Origin: a virus
Virus record (IMG/VR): IMGVR_UViG_3300028829_003089
Coordinates: 1 to 29,599 of that record
Reading direction: 5' to 3' (one strand)
DNA: 29,599 nt
Part shown: positions 1 through 16,782 of the stretch, in pieces
Numbering within the stretch: the stretch's first letter is position 1
Layout of the letters: every line of letters starts with the position of its first letter
The notes under the pieces: model-generated
What the model saw: only the letters and a program-made list of their open reading frames with translations
What the model was told of the DNA's origin: nothing
Database searches by the model: none
Position numbers and translations under genes: made by a program

Positions 1-947
1 GTTGCAGGTACACGCTGAAGCTTCCTGACGTACACCTTTCTCATGCTGGCACTGCGATGCCCTGCAAAGTTATCTTGGTGGTCAGAGACACCCATCGCCT
101 TCAGATCGTGAAACGGGAAGGGCTCAATTCCTGCCTTTCTCATGTGCCCCTGTAGGCGCCTCCACGCGCTTCTGAAGCCACTTTCGCTGTACTGATGGCA
201 GACGTAATCTCCACCCCTAACGTCGCTGAGAGCGGCTCTGAGGCGGTCTGAGAGCTCTGTGAGCTCCCCCTCACTACCCTTTAGGCGGTTGAACTCCAGA
301 TAGTCGTCGTGGATGTGCTCGACACGTATCGCAAGCACCTCAGAGAGCCTACCACGGAGCAAATAAGCAAGCTCCATCATCTGCCGGATCGATGGCGGCG
401 CCATCCTTAGCACCGTCTCATACTCGTCATCACTGACGTACCGCTTTCTCGGCTCCTCCCGATTAAGCTTCACCGATTTCGTTGGATTCTCCGGCACCTC
501 GTAACGCTCCTCGCACCATGACCATGCGCTCTTCAGCACGGCTATGTGGCGATTTGCTGCCACCGGGCTGGGGTAGGTGTCCAGGTAATCACGAATAGTT
601 CTCTTCGTCACACGGTCAAGTGTGCATTCCCCAAACGTCTTATCTCCGACCTGCTTGGCTCTCATCTTAGCGATAGCCGAGCGGTAGTCTTTCTGCGTCT
701 TTGGCTTGAGCCTCTGGAATTGCTGGCCCTCTAGGTAGAGATCAAACATCCAGCCCACCGTATCCTTTGGCGCGCTGCCGATCTCCTCCCATATTGTCCA
801 CAGCTCGGACATGCGGATGGTGTCATCAGCGAGGCGAATAGTCTTGCCCCACCGTTGCTTTCCGTCCACACGCCCAAGCCAGGGCTTATACCAGTACGCG
901 TTCCTAGCCCGAAAAACGTACCTCGGTAGCTTTCTTTCTTCTGTCAT
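1..947 (-). CDS. int: Tyrosine integrase, 3' end cut by window edge
   Basis: Site-specific recombinase that would insert the phage into the host chromosome. Reverse-strand translation gives 315 codons with no stop before the window edge. The start is ATG at 945-947, inside the end of the DUF4224 gene. The N-terminal 60 residues resemble an arm-binding domain (RARNAYWYKPWLGRVDGK); a SAM-like core-binding region follows. The catalytic domain shows Arg200 (LRGRLSEVL), Lys223 (RLKGS), His280 and Lys283 (FHDLKAMG), His297 (GHRSAS) and Tyr306 (KVYVRK). The usual HxxR is HxxK here, a variant I recall from other phage integrases. Only the last few residues should be missing, because the nucleophile Tyr lies about 10 residues before the edge. 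The attP site, if next to int, is outside the window. Confidence 0.93.
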   Translation of the reverse strand, partial: MTEERKLPRYVFRARNAYWYKPWLGRVDGKQRWGKTIRLADDTIRMSELWTIWEEIGSAPKDTVGWMFDLYLEGQQFQRLKPKTQKDYRSAIAKMRAKQVGDKTFGECTLDRVTKRTIRDYLDTYPSPVAANRHIAVLKSAWSWCEERYEVPENPTKSVKLNREEPRKRYVSDDEYETVLRMAPPSIRQMMELAYLLRGRLSEVLAIRVEHIHDDYLEFNRLKGSEGELTELSDRLRAALSDVRGGDYVCHQYSESGFRSAWRRLQGHMRKAGIEPFPFHDLKAMGVSDHQDNFAGHRSASMRKVYVRKLQRVPA

Positions 948-1101
948 CCTTGATTCCCTCGTTTAGCATATCGTCAGTGGTTCGTGGTTTCCCATCCGAA
1001 CCAATAACGAATGGTATACGATTGTCCCTCAAAAATCGACACACTTTACTAGGCTGCTTATACCCGCTGAGTAACTGGAGATCCTCAAAGTCCACAAGCA
1101 T
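904..1101 (-). CDS. DUF4224 family protein, integrase partner
   Basis: A 65-residue protein of the DUF4224 type, small phage proteins usually encoded just upstream of a tyrosine integrase. It has the typical start (MLVDFEDLQLLSGYKQPSK) and a winged-helix-like core that resembles an excisionase or DNA-binding fold (residues 4-45: SGYKQPSKVCRFLRDNRIPFVIGSDGKPRTT, non-contiguous features noted as G13, Y14, P32 and R40). Its stop lies 41 bases beyond the integrase start, so the two are translationally coupled. A role in integration/excision control is inferred from context and not proven for the family. Confidence 0.85.
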   Translation of the reverse strand: MLVDFEDLQLLSGYKQPSKVCRFLRDNRIPFVIGSDGKPRTTDDMLNEGIKDDRRKKATEVRFSG

Positions 1102-4615: not shown

Positions 4616-5042
4616 GCTTTTTGCCCTCCTTGGCTTTTTGGAGCTCACCGTCGAGTCGCTTTGATTCGAGTCGATAGTGGGCTGAGATTGCTTTGATGTT
4701 TGCTCTGGCGTATTGCGCTCGTCCTTTGCAGGCGGCGATTTCAACCATCTTTTCAATAGCTTCATCTGGGTTGTCACCTCCGTGTATTCGTTTCCAGATT
4801 TCTATGTGCTCCACTGGGTGCCCCTCAACGTAGTTATGGCAATAGGCACATAGGCTGAGTTGCTTGGGGCTAAACCTCGAACCCCAGTGCATGCGTGAAA
4901 TGAAGTGGCTACATTGGAGGCCGGCTGGCTTCTCGGTGTAGTCCTTCTCGCATCGCTGGCACTTCCATTGCGCTGACTTCCTCACGCAGTCGGATAGGTG
5001 CTTATCGGCCACGTTGCGCTTGATCTTTCCTCCGAAGCCCAT
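4581..5042 (-). CDS. NinG/Rap-like HNH recombination endonuclease
   Basis: A 153-residue basic protein with paired zinc knuckles CQRC (about 28-31) and CAYC (about 66-69) around an HNH-like core (CSHFISRMHWGSRFSPKQLSLC). This matches the layout of the lambda NinG (Rap) family, which acts on branched recombination intermediates; a generic HNH endonuclease is the alternative. The start ATG 5040-5042 overlaps the methyltransferase stop (TGATG), with GGAGG 7 bases upstream. The position beside the annealing and SSB-like proteins fits a recombination role. Confidence 0.75.
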   Translation of the reverse strand: MGFGGKIKRNVADKHLSDCVRKSAQWKCQRCEKDYTEKPAGLQCSHFISRMHWGSRFSPKQLSLCAYCHNYVEGHPVEHIEIWKRIHGGDNPDEAIEKMVEIAACKGRAQYARANIKAISAHYRLESKRLDGELQKAKEGKKHDLTVYGYIRK

Positions 5043-5599
5043 CAGATAGCCTCCACCGCTTGGATGCGCTCACCTATCCACCTAACAACAGGCACAGCAA
5101 AGCTATTCCCCAGAGCCTTGTACCTCGGACCATCGGGACACTTATCTGCTGGCTTGTTGCGGTACGGGATCTGTGTATAAGAGTCAGGAAACCCCTGCAG
5201 CCTCTCGCACTCGGTTGGTGTCAGGCGTCTAACGCTTAGACCCTCGCGAACCGCTTGATATCCCTGACCAGGCTTGCCACCGCCACCAGACAATGAGTTG
5301 GTCACATTCATCTCGTAAACATCTGCCTTCTGGTTTTCGGCAAAGGCCACACAGCTCGTTGTTACAGCAGGCGGGTCACCACCGGCGAGCATTGGGGTCG
5401 CTTCCAGAGCTAACCTCAGTAGCGGCGGTAGCTTCTTCCCTCGCTTCTCGGCTCGGCGCAGGATTCCCTGACAGGCTTTCGCGCTCAAAAAGAACCGCTG
5501 CGGCACGTCTCCAGTCTCCAAGGTATCCGACAACGAACTCCAAAGTCCCGTCCTCCGTTCGATGACAGGACGCCGGGGACGTTTTCCCAGACCACCCAC
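5042..5599 (-). CDS. C5-cytosine methyltransferase, C-terminal fragment (frame -1)
   Basis: Frame holding the end of a phage Dcm-like enzyme: VRRLTPTECERLQGFPDSYT (motif IX region) and RYKALGNSFAVPVVRWIGERI (motif X), both needed to complete the SAM-binding fold. Its first third reads SLSDTLETGDVPQRFFLSAK and GILRRAEKRGKKLPP, which I recall from phage proteins next to or inside Dcm genes. The frame opens at a GTG (5599) without a ribosome site, so this is not a convincing separate gene. It needs a -1 shift from the upstream fragment. The QRRRR-type motif VIII region is absent. Either a decayed gene or one expressed by frameshifting. Confidence 0.6.
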   Translation of the reverse strand: MGGLGKRPRRPVIERRTGLWSSLSDTLETGDVPQRFFLSAKACQGILRRAEKRGKKLPPLLRLALEATPMLAGGDPPAVTTSCVAFAENQKADVYEMNVTNSLSGGGGKPGQGYQAVREGLSVRRLTPTECERLQGFPDSYTQIPYRNKPADKCPDGPRYKALGNSFAVPVVRWIGERIQAVEAI

Positions 5600-5910
5600 T
5601 GTGGCCGCTTGCGTTGAGCAAGCCTAATGAATTCGAGGGCCAGGTTGCCGCGCTCATCATCCATGCCGCCTCTGAGTCCGGCGACGCTAAATGACTGGCA
5701 TGGCGTCCCTCCCACGAGAAGGTCGATTGGTCCATATTCATCATCCTTGATAGAAGTAAAATCTCCGTGAAGCGGAACCGTTGGATAGTGGTGCTGTAGC
5801 ACCGCGCACGGAAATGCTTCGATGTCACTGAAAAATGCAGGCTTCCATCCCATGTGGTGCCAAGCCATGGTTGCGGCCTCTATGCCGCTGCATACGCTGC
5901 CGTACCTCAT
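5485..5910 (-). CDS. C5-cytosine methyltransferase, N-terminal fragment
   Basis: A 141-codon frame starting at ATG 5908-5910, which overlaps the upstream stop. It holds motif I (YGSVCSGIEAA), motif IV with catalytic Cys71 (GGTPCQSFS), the GLRGGMDDERGNL segment and motif VI (VVWENVPG, Glu109-Asn110-Val111). The enzyme would transfer a methyl group from SAM to C5 of cytosine in phage DNA, a common anti-restriction measure. After SSNGGRDFG the frame leaves the family pattern (VRCRIPW...) and stops at TGA 5485-5487. The text expected later, FVVGYLGDWRRAAAVLFERE, follows at once but in the +1 frame, so a deletion or indel has broken the gene here. Confidence 0.7.
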   Translation of the reverse strand: MRYGSVCSGIEAATMAWHHMGWKPAFFSDIEAFPCAVLQHHYPTVPLHGDFTSIKDDEYGPIDLLVGGTPCQSFSVAGLRGGMDDERGNLALEFIRLAQRKRPQWVVWENVPGVLSSNGGRDFGVRCRIPWRLETCRSGSF

Positions 5911-9858: not shown

Positions 9859-10358
9859 GATTCCTCCCCCTGCATATATATTCCCGTTAAGGCCCCATCC
9901 ACCTCCCATGTGCCAGTTTGGTACTTTAAATATAGGTCCCACGCAGCCTTTACCTGCTCTGGCGTGCCGTGTTTTTGCAGCGCCTCAATGTGGTCCAGTG
10001 CCCTGTCGCTGCGCTCGTGCGCGGCCTGGTCATACATCTGGGCATCGAAGTCCAGATACGTGCCCTCGCTGATTAGCTCAGGGTCGTCACTAGGCTCAAA
10101 GAATGCAGATGGTTCAGACTCCCAAATGTCATGGGCCACCTTGGCGTACCGAGATGCAGAGCCAAGCTCCCCCTCAATGCGCTTCATAAGTTCGCAGGGA
10201 TCGCTCACCTCATACATGAACGCAGTAACGTCATCGATGACGCCGTTACGTACCGCCCACTTGAACGCGCCACGGCTGCCGTTCTTAAAGTCCGTATAGG
10301 TGCTGTACTTGCGAGCCTCGGCCTCTACGGTCTCCCTATTCCATTTCATTACCGGCAT
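9855..10358 (-). CDS. Hypothetical protein with a nuclease-associated helical motif
   Basis: A 167-residue acidic protein. The start is ATG 10356-10358, overlapping the upstream TAA (TAATG). Residues 6-47 carry a motif (ETVEAEARKYSTYTDF, KNGSRGAFKWAVRNGVIDDV) that I recall, in the form KYKTRSEFxKGSxxAYxxAxxxGWLD, as a DNA-binding repeat in phage homing and VSR-like endonucleases and their fragments. The remaining 120 residues (DPELISEGTYLDFDAQM, EQVKAAWDLYLKYQTGTWEV) show no nuclease motif. Role unknown. Confidence 0.7.
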   Translation of the reverse strand: MPVMKWNRETVEAEARKYSTYTDFKNGSRGAFKWAVRNGVIDDVTAFMYEVSDPCELMKRIEGELGSASRYAKVAHDIWESEPSAFFEPSDDPELISEGTYLDFDAQMYDQAAHERSDRALDHIEALQKHGTPEQVKAAWDLYLKYQTGTWEVDGALTGIYMQGEES

Positions 10359-10594
10359 TACAGAATCCCCCACTCGTCGGTCTCACACTCTGGGTCCTCG
10401 TAGTCCTCAAACATCTCTATGAGGTCAGCAGGGTCCATTACAGACATGTCTCCAACCTCCCCAGCGATCTGCATTACCTCGTGCTCAGTTGTCTGAGCGA
10501 CCTGTACAGCGCCTGCTCCCGCCTTGACCGTCTGCCAATCGTTGAACGCCGGGTATAGCGGCTTGATGTTTCTCAAATAGCTTCTTGCCTTCAT
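10358..10594 (-). CDS. Small hypothetical protein, first gene after the tmRNA
   Basis: A 78-residue protein starting at ATG 10592-10594 (MKARSYLRNIKPLYPAF), chosen because AAGGAG sits 6 bases upstream; an ATG two codons earlier would touch the ribosome site. The C-terminal half is very acidic (DPADLIEMFEDYEDPECETDE). A copy of the TGACGTAG dyad (10608-10627) lies directly before the ribosome site, so this gene probably heads the long leftward replication operon. No family recognised. Confidence 0.72.
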   Translation of the reverse strand: MKARSYLRNIKPLYPAFNDWQTVKAGAGAVQVAQTTEHEVMQIAGEVGDMSVMDPADLIEMFEDYEDPECETDEWGIL

Positions 10595-10607
10595 TGTCAT
10601 CTCCTTA

Positions 10608-10630: not shown

Positions 10631-10880
10631 CGGTGCCAGTCTTCTGGTGACGAGGCGCTGGCTTTCCTCGGCATTAGCTTATGCTGCTAACGCTACGTAC
10701 TGCTCGTCATTTGCATTTATTGACGTTGTTGCGTTTGCCCGATACACGGCTGGCAGCTCCCGCACCAGTTCTCCACTGTGTCCACCTTCCCAGTCGAAAC
10801 CATATCTCCCCCATCGTTTTGGAGGAGGCGGGACTCGAACCCGCGTCCTGAGTCAGCTTTGCAGCTTCAACGAATCTCTA
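10631..10880 (-). ncRNA. ssrA: Circularly permuted (two-piece) tmRNA
   Basis: Read on the minus strand, the acceptor half comes first: T-arm GCGGG-TTCGAGT-CCCGC (10844-10828), acceptor strand CTCCTCC (10827-10821), discriminator A, no encoded CCA. After a 7-base spacer (10819-10813) the coding half starts GGGGGAG (10812-10806), which pairs with CTCCTCC over 7 bp, then ATATGGTTTCGAC, matching the tmRNA 5' consensus. CTGGG after TTCGA can pair with CTCAG before GACGCGGG (helix P2). A CTGG/CCAG plus GCGG/CCGT pseudoknot precedes the tag. The tag, 10714-10682, reads ANDEQYVALAA then TAA; the stop lies in the loop of an 8-bp hairpin (GCGTTAGC/GCTAATGC), as in P5. CGAGG/CCTCG and GCCAG/CTGGC form a second H-type pseudoknot. 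It would rescue stalled ribosomes and tag nascent proteins. The outer ends are approximate. Confidence 0.92.
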
Positions 10881-11171
10881 AACAATCTCCTCCTCAACCT
10901 CCTCAAACGAGCTCACACGGACCGAACCGCAGAGGGCATCCAACTTGCCCTGCGCCACCTCAACGAGGCCCCAGAACTCAGCCATGGCCTCCTCAGAGGC
11001 ATTCAAGGGCGAGAACTTCTCACCCAGCTTCAGCAAGCGAGCCATACGCTCCTCACCACGCTGCTCCGTGGTGCTCACCTCGCGCACCGCACGACGAGCC
11101 TTGCCCAGCAAGGCATCAACAGCCTTGCCCTGGCGCTCCGCCAACATGGCGGCATTGCTCACCTTCGGCAT
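10878..11171 (-). CDS. Helical hypothetical protein
   Basis: A 97-residue, almost entirely helical charged protein (MPKVSNAAMLAERQGKAVDA, LLGKARRAVREVSTTEQRGE, end EEVEEEIV). ATG 11169-11171 overlaps the upstream stop (TAATG) after GAGGAGGGG. Its stop codon falls at the edge of the tmRNA acceptor half, so gene and RNA are probably on one transcript that is later processed. Family not recognised. Confidence 0.7.
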   Translation of the reverse strand: MPKVSNAAMLAERQGKAVDALLGKARRAVREVSTTEQRGEERMARLLKLGEKFSPLNASEEAMAEFWGLVEVAQGKLDALCGSVRVSSFEEVEEEIV

Positions 11172-15183: not shown

Positions 15184-16384
15184 CCTTGTTGAGCAGATAG
15201 GATTACCCGGATTTACGGTCACTAGGGACAAGATTAGCCATTCTAGTGGCGGCGAGATCATTTATAGGGGTCTTGCGAGGTCTCCAGAGAGCCTGAAGTC
15301 TCTGGCCAGGGTGGCGGTGGCGTGGATTGATGAGGCCCAGACGATTTCTGAGGAGTCTCTGAGGATCCTGACCCCTACCATTCGTGAGGCGGGCAGCTAT
15401 TTCATCATGACGGCGAACCCACGCTCTAGTGGGGACCCGTTCAGCGAGAAGTTTCTTGGTGACCGGATGTCGGCGCTGAGGACCAATAAGGTCCATGAGG
15501 ACGATATGTCCACGGTGCTCCTCGTTAACTACGACGACAACCCGTTTATGCCTGCTGAGCTGACCCAGGAGCGGCTGAACGACAAGAAGAACCTGCCGCC
15601 GGACCTTTATCAGCATATTTGGTGTGGTGAGCACTATGACAGCGTCGAGGCCGGACTCGTTGACCCCACATGGTTCGATGCCGCGCTGGAGATTGGTGAA
15701 AAGATCAAGTATCGACCCTCCGGGGCCAAGGTTTTGGGCTTTGACCCGGCCGATACGGGCCCAGATCCGGCGGGATTGGCCGTCAGGCACGGCGCCAAGG
15801 TCGTTGACATGGGTCTTAAGCACGATGGCGACGTTGCCGAAGCGCTTGATTGGAGCTTGGACTTCGTTGACCGCCATCACTGCAGCGATTTTGTTTACGA
15901 CCAGGACGGTTTGGGATTGGGTCTGGCACGCGAGGTGGAGAGGGCCCTTGGTTCTCGAAACGTTGGGTACTCCGGATTCCGTGGCGGCTCTACGCCTGAG
16001 AATCCGTCTGGAATGCATGACGGCCACCGCACGAATCGCGATGCATTCGCAAATCGAAGGTGCCAGGCGTATTGGAACGTGCGCGAGAGGTTCTGGAAGA
16101 CGTATCAGGCGAATGATGGGGAGTATATGGACCCCGACGAGCTGATTTTCCTGGATCCGGAGCATCCGCTGGTGCCGCAGTTGAGGTCAGAGATCTGCCG
16201 GATTCCTGTGATACCCCATCAGGCTGGGAAAATCGCTTTGATGAGCAAAGTGAACATGAAGAAGCCGCCGCTGAATCTGCCATCGCCTAACTTGGCTGAC
16301 GCGCTGGTCTACTGCTTCACGGTCACCGACTACTTGGTCGGATCGTGGAACAAGCCAATAGCCTATCAGGAGACATACATATGA
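14981..16384 (+). CDS. terL: Terminase large subunit
   Basis: A 467-residue DNA-packaging motor. ATPase domain: Walker A GGRGSGKS (24-31), Walker B VAWIDE (113-118) and the coupling segment FIMTANPRS (141-149). Nuclease domain (RNase H fold): FDPADTG with Asp255/Asp258, VYDQDG with Asp307/Asp309, and a late Asp in NLADALVYC. It is of the PBSX-like (Terminase_3) type, used to cut concatemers and drive DNA into the prohead. Start ATG 14981 follows AAGGCGGTG. It ends in an ATGA overlap with the HNH gene. Confidence 0.95.
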
Positions 16385-16782
16385 TCGAATGGAAGCCGGT
16401 TAAGGGCTACGAGGGACTGTATGAGGTCTCCAGCGAGGGCGACATCAAGAGCCTTGAGCGCCGTATCCATTACACGCTGCCCAGCGGTAAAGACTCGTCC
16501 CGACTGTGCCGTGAGCGAGTATTGAAGCCTAGCAATGGCGGGCGAGGTTATGCCCTCTACCACCTTTGTGGTGAGGAGCAGGTTTCTATGTACGGCCACC
16601 GTCTTGTGGCTGAGGCGTTTATTCCCAACCCAGACAGCAAGGCGCAGGTCAATCATATTAACGGCGACAAGTCAGACAACCGCGTCGAGAACCTTGAGTG
16701 GTCTACCCGTATGGAGAACATGCACCACGCTCTGGCTAACGGCCTGAATCGCTACAAAAAGAATTATGAGGTTTATGCCTGA
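16381..16782 (+). CDS. NUMOD4-HNH homing endonuclease
   Basis: A 133-residue free-standing endonuclease. It has an N-terminal NUMOD4 DNA-binding motif ([20 protein letters not shown], residues 3-22). The HNH core is [12 protein letters not shown], then [20 protein letters not shown] (catalytic His in NHIN, Asn in DNRVENL). Start ATG 16381 (AGGAG upstream) overlaps the terminase stop; the stop overlaps the portal start (TGATG). So it sits seamlessly between two essential genes, as homing genes often do. Target site unknown. Confidence 0.9.

Follow-up and report, generated by a model that had tools for sequence, protein, structure and literature searches.

On the minus strand of a 29,599-nucleotide viral contig (IMG/VR record IMGVR_UViG_3300028829_003089, analysed over its whole length and referred to here as the window) lies a circularly permuted ssrA gene, at positions 10876-10631, which was identified through Rfam models, ARAGORN and a base-by-base reading. 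Its location between early genes, proposed in a previous sequence-only reading of this DNA, is supported. The features of the locus are given below with the basis for each in brackets; G005, L003, L041 and L145 are records of related phages.

10878..11171, minus strand: upstream neighbour gene, 97 amino acids, function unknown (tblastn and alignment; conserved with G005 and L041)
10820..10876, minus strand: acceptor piece of the permuted tmRNA (RF04321 alignment, coordinates read from the sequence)
10876-10845, minus strand: 3' strand of P2, within the acceptor piece
10844-10828, minus strand: T-arm GCGGG/TTCGAGT/CCCGC (base-by-base check)
10827-10821, minus strand: acceptor 3' strand CTCCTCC (base-by-base check)
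10820, minus strand: discriminator A, A73 (base-by-base check)
10819-10813, minus strand: intervening 7-nt spacer AAACGAT (sequence)
10631..10812, minus strand: coding piece, with acceptor 5' strand, D-loop-like GGTTTCGAC, P2 5' strand, PK1, tag frame, P5 and PK2 (ARAGORN, Rfam models and sequence; helices covary in relatives)
10812-10806, minus strand: acceptor 5' strand GGGGGAG (7/7 pairs, including G3-U70)
10801-10793, minus strand: D-loop-like GGTTTCGAC (base-by-base check)
about 10768-10747, minus strand: PK1 (base-by-base check)
10714-10712, minus strand: resume codon GCA (base-by-base check)
10679..10714, minus strand: tag frame ANDEQYVALAA followed by TAA (ARAGORN; synonymous-biased divergence against L003 and L041)
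10671..10693, minus strand: P5 hairpin GCGTTAGC/GCTAATGC, 8 bp, with the stop codon in its loop (8/8 pairs; relatives show compensatory changes)
10635..10670, minus strand: PK2, an H-type pseudoknot, CGAGG/CCTCG and GCCAG/CTGGC (both stems kept in three relatives)
10358..10600, minus strand: downstream neighbour gene, 80 amino acids, ATG at 10594 as the probable start (conserved in G005, L041 and L145)

The hallmarks listed in the sequence-only reading were all borne out base by base: the acceptor half comes first, the 7-bp acceptor stem closes across the 7-nt spacer with 7/7 pairs, and the T-arm, GGTTTCGAC, the resume codon GCA, the tag ANDEQYVALAA with its ClpXP-type -ALAA end, the stop codon in the P5 loop and two pseudoknots are in place. 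Both alanine identity elements, G3-U70 and A73, are present. One position of the P2d helix is unpaired (3/4), and the 3' end of the coding piece is uncertain, the beta_tmRNA model reaching to 10608. CCA is absent from the gene, A73 being followed by AAA. By analogy with known permuted tmRNAs, the spacer would be expected to be cut out during processing.

The covariance-model and ARAGORN searches proposed with that reading were both positive and confirm a permuted two-piece tmRNA on the minus strand of a phage. RF04321 (tmRNA_permuted) gave a full-length match to window positions 10875-10679 (minus strand) of 75.8 bits (E 4.4e-13; gathering score 47 bits), a score below the 97-162 bits of clear bacterial permuted tmRNAs in the same comparison. 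ARAGORN called a permuted tmRNA at 10909-10588 with the tag ANDEQYVALAA, and in 4.4 Mb of Markov-simulated sequence (150 copies of the window) it made no tmRNA call. Within clan CL00001 the top model for the window was beta_tmRNA (RF01850), at 60.5 bits; this falls short of the curated cut-off of 84 for membership of that family, and the relative L010 (G005) scored 94.4 bits. A second RF04321 match, inside the capsid gene (21343-21216), was dismissed at 20.6 bits, far under the cut-off and with no ARAGORN call.

Elsewhere in the window are genes for terminase, portal and major head protein, together with genes for a Sak-like annealing protein, a DnaB-type ATPase, a B12-type ribonucleotide reductase and an XRE-type regulator. 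The frame at 3-947 (minus strand) matches phage integrase (phrog_1, E 5e-40), an assignment that relies on PHROGs together with tblastn hits to annotated phage integrases, the Pfam integrase match being below cut-off, and the frame at 904-1101 (minus strand) matches excisionase (phrog_1266). Because integrase and excisionase genes are present the phage is probably temperate, a point absent from the sequence-only reading, and attP is likely to lie near or past the left end of the contig. The statement in that reading that the tmRNA is not at an att site is supported to the extent that it lies about 10 kb from the integrase and excisionase genes (3-1101) rather than beside the integrase. Two other loci may be recorded. 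At 5042-5910 (minus strand) a C-5 cytosine methyltransferase is split, by either a real break or a sequencing error, into two overlapping frames, 5485-5910 holding the N-terminal part and 5042-5599 the C-terminal part; its DNA is 78% identical over 367 nt to that of Caulobacter phage DMCA, and it has no match in the relative G005. At 16345-16782 (plus strand), between terminase and portal, is a NUMOD4/HNH endonuclease gene, likely a homing endonuclease.

A search that did find an SmpB domain in a bacterial genome detected none in the window, as had been noted from sequence alone, and none in the relatives G001 and G005; viral records may be incomplete. With no SmpB gene found and no CCA in the tmRNA gene, the phage must obtain both from its host. 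No tRNA genes were found in these phage genomes, promoter-like sites near the tmRNA were at chance level, and no Rfam riboswitch family matched near it. Searches bearing on the host gave a lead only: the ANDxxYVALAA-type tag pattern had no match in a collection of genomes from 84,980 species, and a looser pattern returned, besides unrelated sequences, betaproteobacterial-type tmRNAs with the tag ANDEQFAVAA. None of 385 genomes of one class contained a relative of the neighbour gene, and of 369 genomes of another class a single one gave matches, which were short, repeated and weak.

Three divergent IMG/VR relatives carry a homologous permuted tmRNA. G005 (39 kb, terminase 74% identical), found by a terminase search, has a permuted tmRNA of 106.8 bits with the tag ANQDIYAIAA; L003, found by a tag-pattern search and the only record returned by pattern scans for very near copies of the window tmRNA, has one of 79.3 bits with the tag ANDDNYVALAA; and L041, which came from a permuted-gene pattern set, has the tag ANDDNYAIAA and shares the terminase, portal and neighbour genes of the window's phage group. 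As in the window, the tmRNA slot of G005 and L041 is flanked by homologues of the 97- and 80-amino acid genes, with extra insertions in the form of a small CxxC-containing gene and, in L041, a 105-amino acid frame. L003 has other small flanking genes, yet a helicase-like ATPase and ribonucleotide reductase lie downstream. G3-U70 and A73 are preserved in all four phages, which form one clade in a tree of 72 permuted tmRNA sequences; the alignment is short and gappy and the bacterial sister is not settled. In L003 (3296-3312) and in L076, a 3-kb contig of a gammaproteobacterial MAG that has seven tRNAs and may be phage DNA, the T-loop is TGCAAAT and not TTCGANT.

Helix pairing was assessed in six phage sequences, the four focal phages plus L046 and L029 from a neighbouring clade of the tree. 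The acceptor stem, which is fixed by register, pairs at 42/42 positions within sequences against 74% when each strand is combined with the partner strand of another phage, and 10 two-sided changes were counted; for P5, likewise fixed by register, the figures are 45/48 and 55%. The strands of P2 and the pseudoknots were picked by eye, which biases their pairing counts upward, whereas the acceptor stem, T-stem and P5 were not located in this way. The tags of the window and L003 differ at 10 nucleotides, eight of them at third positions, and keep 9/11 residues (P about 1.5e-4 under random placement). The L003-L041 comparison gives P about 0.002; taken by itself, L041 against L010 falls short of significance (P 0.10). 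P5 overlaps the tag frame, so structure adds some constraint on the tag. Taken from sequence comparison, the paired changes in the acceptor stem and P5, the synonymous bias of the tag and the retention of G3-U70 and A73 indicate that the tag is translated and the RNA folded, and thus that the gene is a working-type two-piece tmRNA and not a relic.

L003 and L041 were recovered via the tmRNA itself, and are uninformative on how often it is retained. A search with the downstream 172-amino acid gene returned three further records, one of which (L143) ends before the tmRNA slot. L145, a 34.8-kb record, has both neighbour genes (97 and 80 amino acids), along with the small CxxC gene and a short basic frame, but no tmRNA, and L144 has neither the 97-amino acid gene nor a tmRNA; neither RF04321 nor RF00023 matched either record. 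As L144 and L145 cover the neighbourhood yet have none, the tmRNA is an accessory gene that was gained or lost within the phage group. Loss of the stem pairings and tag in related phages had been named beforehand as evidence that would count against the tmRNA assignment. Two relatives do indeed have no such gene, which makes it non-essential for the group and leaves its identity unaffected, and the carriers keep both pairings and tag.

The sequence-only reading had called a phage copy between early genes and away from an att site unusual, which is an overstatement. A strict permuted-gene pattern matched 58 IMG/VR contigs (some near-identical, and one being G005); in 55 of them the permuted layout was borne out by a structural check, and ARAGORN called 47. 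The spacers of these genes measure between about 7 and 123 nt, and several others lack CCA; bacterial contigs L072 and L074 also have CCA-less permuted tmRNAs. Tags ending in -PMAA and not -ALAA, such as AVPFELPMAA and AKDEPFALPMAA, occur in the phage permuted tmRNAs L021, L036, L038, L042, L045, L059, L062 and L071. In PMC9004378, 53 two-piece tmRNAs are reported among 18,146 phage genomes, 50 of the 53 from marine or aquatic samples, one is described from phage Melnitz, and the same kinds of role are proposed for phage tmRNA as in the sequence-only reading, namely ribosome rescue during infection or the steering of tagged proteins to proteolysis. The window tmRNA adds to these published phage-borne examples. 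Other reports tabulate 79 phage tmRNA sequences and present RF04321 (PMC11915505), and describe tmRNA together with SmpB in huge phages (PMC7162821) and tmRNAs in Bradyrhizobium elkanii phages (PMC12656738).

Like the genes of Melnitz and other aquatic phages, as these are set out in PMC9004378, the window gene is a complete permuted phage ssrA in an operon with no evident integration role. However, Melnitz is a 141-kb myophage with an alphaproteobacterial-type ssrA reported with a glutamine riboswitch (PMC9004378), whereas the window belongs to a small, probably temperate phage whose top clan match is beta_tmRNA, with a short spacer and no nearby Rfam riboswitch match. The betaproteobacterial two-piece tmRNA (RF01850; for example L074) shares with the window a 7-nt spacer, the lack of an encoded CCA, a tag beginning ANDEQ and a similar resume context (AAATGC), but its tag ends in FAVAA rather than YVALAA and the distance from tag frame to acceptor 5' strand is 86 nt as against 98. 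The one-piece tmRNAs of Streptomyces phages and mycobacteriophages are likewise phage-borne, but are unpermuted and belong to much larger phages; the Streptomyces phage genes resemble the window in sequence in the T-arm region only.

G005 and L041 have in addition an H-type pseudoknot just 5' of the acceptor piece (L010 (G005) 1460-1500; L041 10250-10300), consisting of CATCTG, GCCGGG and CAGATG, then TAAA(A/T)CAA, CCCGG and ACTAA. None of 30 shuffles in G005, and a single one in L041, matched its strength. The one-piece model RF00023 aligns over this region with its 3' half, the A-rich stretch and ACTAA included, although the scores of 32.8 and 25.3 bits, respectively, are below threshold. 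In position and topology the element resembles PK4 of one-piece tmRNA. Nothing comparable is present in the window, where a pseudoknot at this position was no better than shuffles. To our knowledge, known two-piece tmRNAs have no PK4-like element 5' of the acceptor piece. Because G005 and L041 keep this element, it is conceivable, though on balance unlikely, that permutation arose in the phage clade separately from the known bacterial lineages, or that the clade has retained an intermediate form.

We consider it probable, at roughly 80%, that the gene is a working-type permuted ssrA, an accessory early gene of a probably temperate tailed phage, which frees stalled ribosomes with the help of host factors. 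The tmRNA would be co-transcribed with the minus-strand early genes, to judge from the shared strand and the promoter-like sites being no more frequent than chance. As in known two-piece tmRNAs, host RNase P, acting at G1, and 3'-end nucleases would then cut the precursor at the spacer, leaving acceptor and coding pieces joined by the acceptor stem and P2. The 3' end would be completed by the host CCA-adding enzyme, host AlaRS would charge it with alanine through G3-U70, and host SmpB would bring the charged tmRNA to stalled ribosomes, where translation would resume at GCA and append the ClpXP-type tag ANDEQYVALAA. The likely benefit would be to release, in lytic growth or upon induction, ribosomes that have stalled on broken mRNA.

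A different role for the same RNA would be mainly regulatory or competitive, in that it captures the SmpB of the host and substitutes its own tag for the host's, so that particular host or phage proteins, such as a lysis-lysogeny repressor, are redirected or shielded. The phage is probably temperate and encodes an XRE-type regulator, integrase and excisionase; the tag, given that its pattern is unmatched in the bacterial collection, may differ from that of the host; and the tRNA-domain-only phage tmRNA of DS6A is reported to inhibit host tmRNA (PMC11915505, PMC4131195). However, a pure SmpB trap would need neither a tag of the ordinary AN...ALAA form nor selection on the mRNA-like part, both of which are seen here, and we regard this role as improbable.

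Two further explanations, in which the sequence would not act as a tmRNA for the phage, are rejected. A non-functional relic of a captured host ssrA gene might be expected from the missing CCA and from the absence of the tmRNA in L144 and L145, but compensatory changes in several helices, the synonymous-biased tag and the conserved G3-U70 argue against decay, and CCA-less genes occur in the bacterial contigs L072 and L074 as well; a relic is therefore very unlikely. There is hardly any likelihood that the sequence is an attachment-site fragment, carried since the phage integrates into host ssrA. Such an origin would fit with the presence of integrase and excisionase genes and with ssrA being a common integration target (PMC11915505), but the gene is complete with both pieces, lies about 10 kb from the integrase amid a series of genes, and is retained in G005, which has no Phage_integrase match in its 39 kb.

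In the passages of the literature examined, no test of a complete phage tmRNA during infection is reported. What our analysis adds is a group of small, probably temperate phages in which the gene, under measured selection, is present in some members and missing from others, and a PK4-like element in two relatives. As no tRNA genes and no SmpB were found in these genomes, any benefit of the tmRNA must come via host factors. Since the gene is present or absent within one group of small phages, with tag and fold under measurable selection, matched pairs of such phages could reveal its role.
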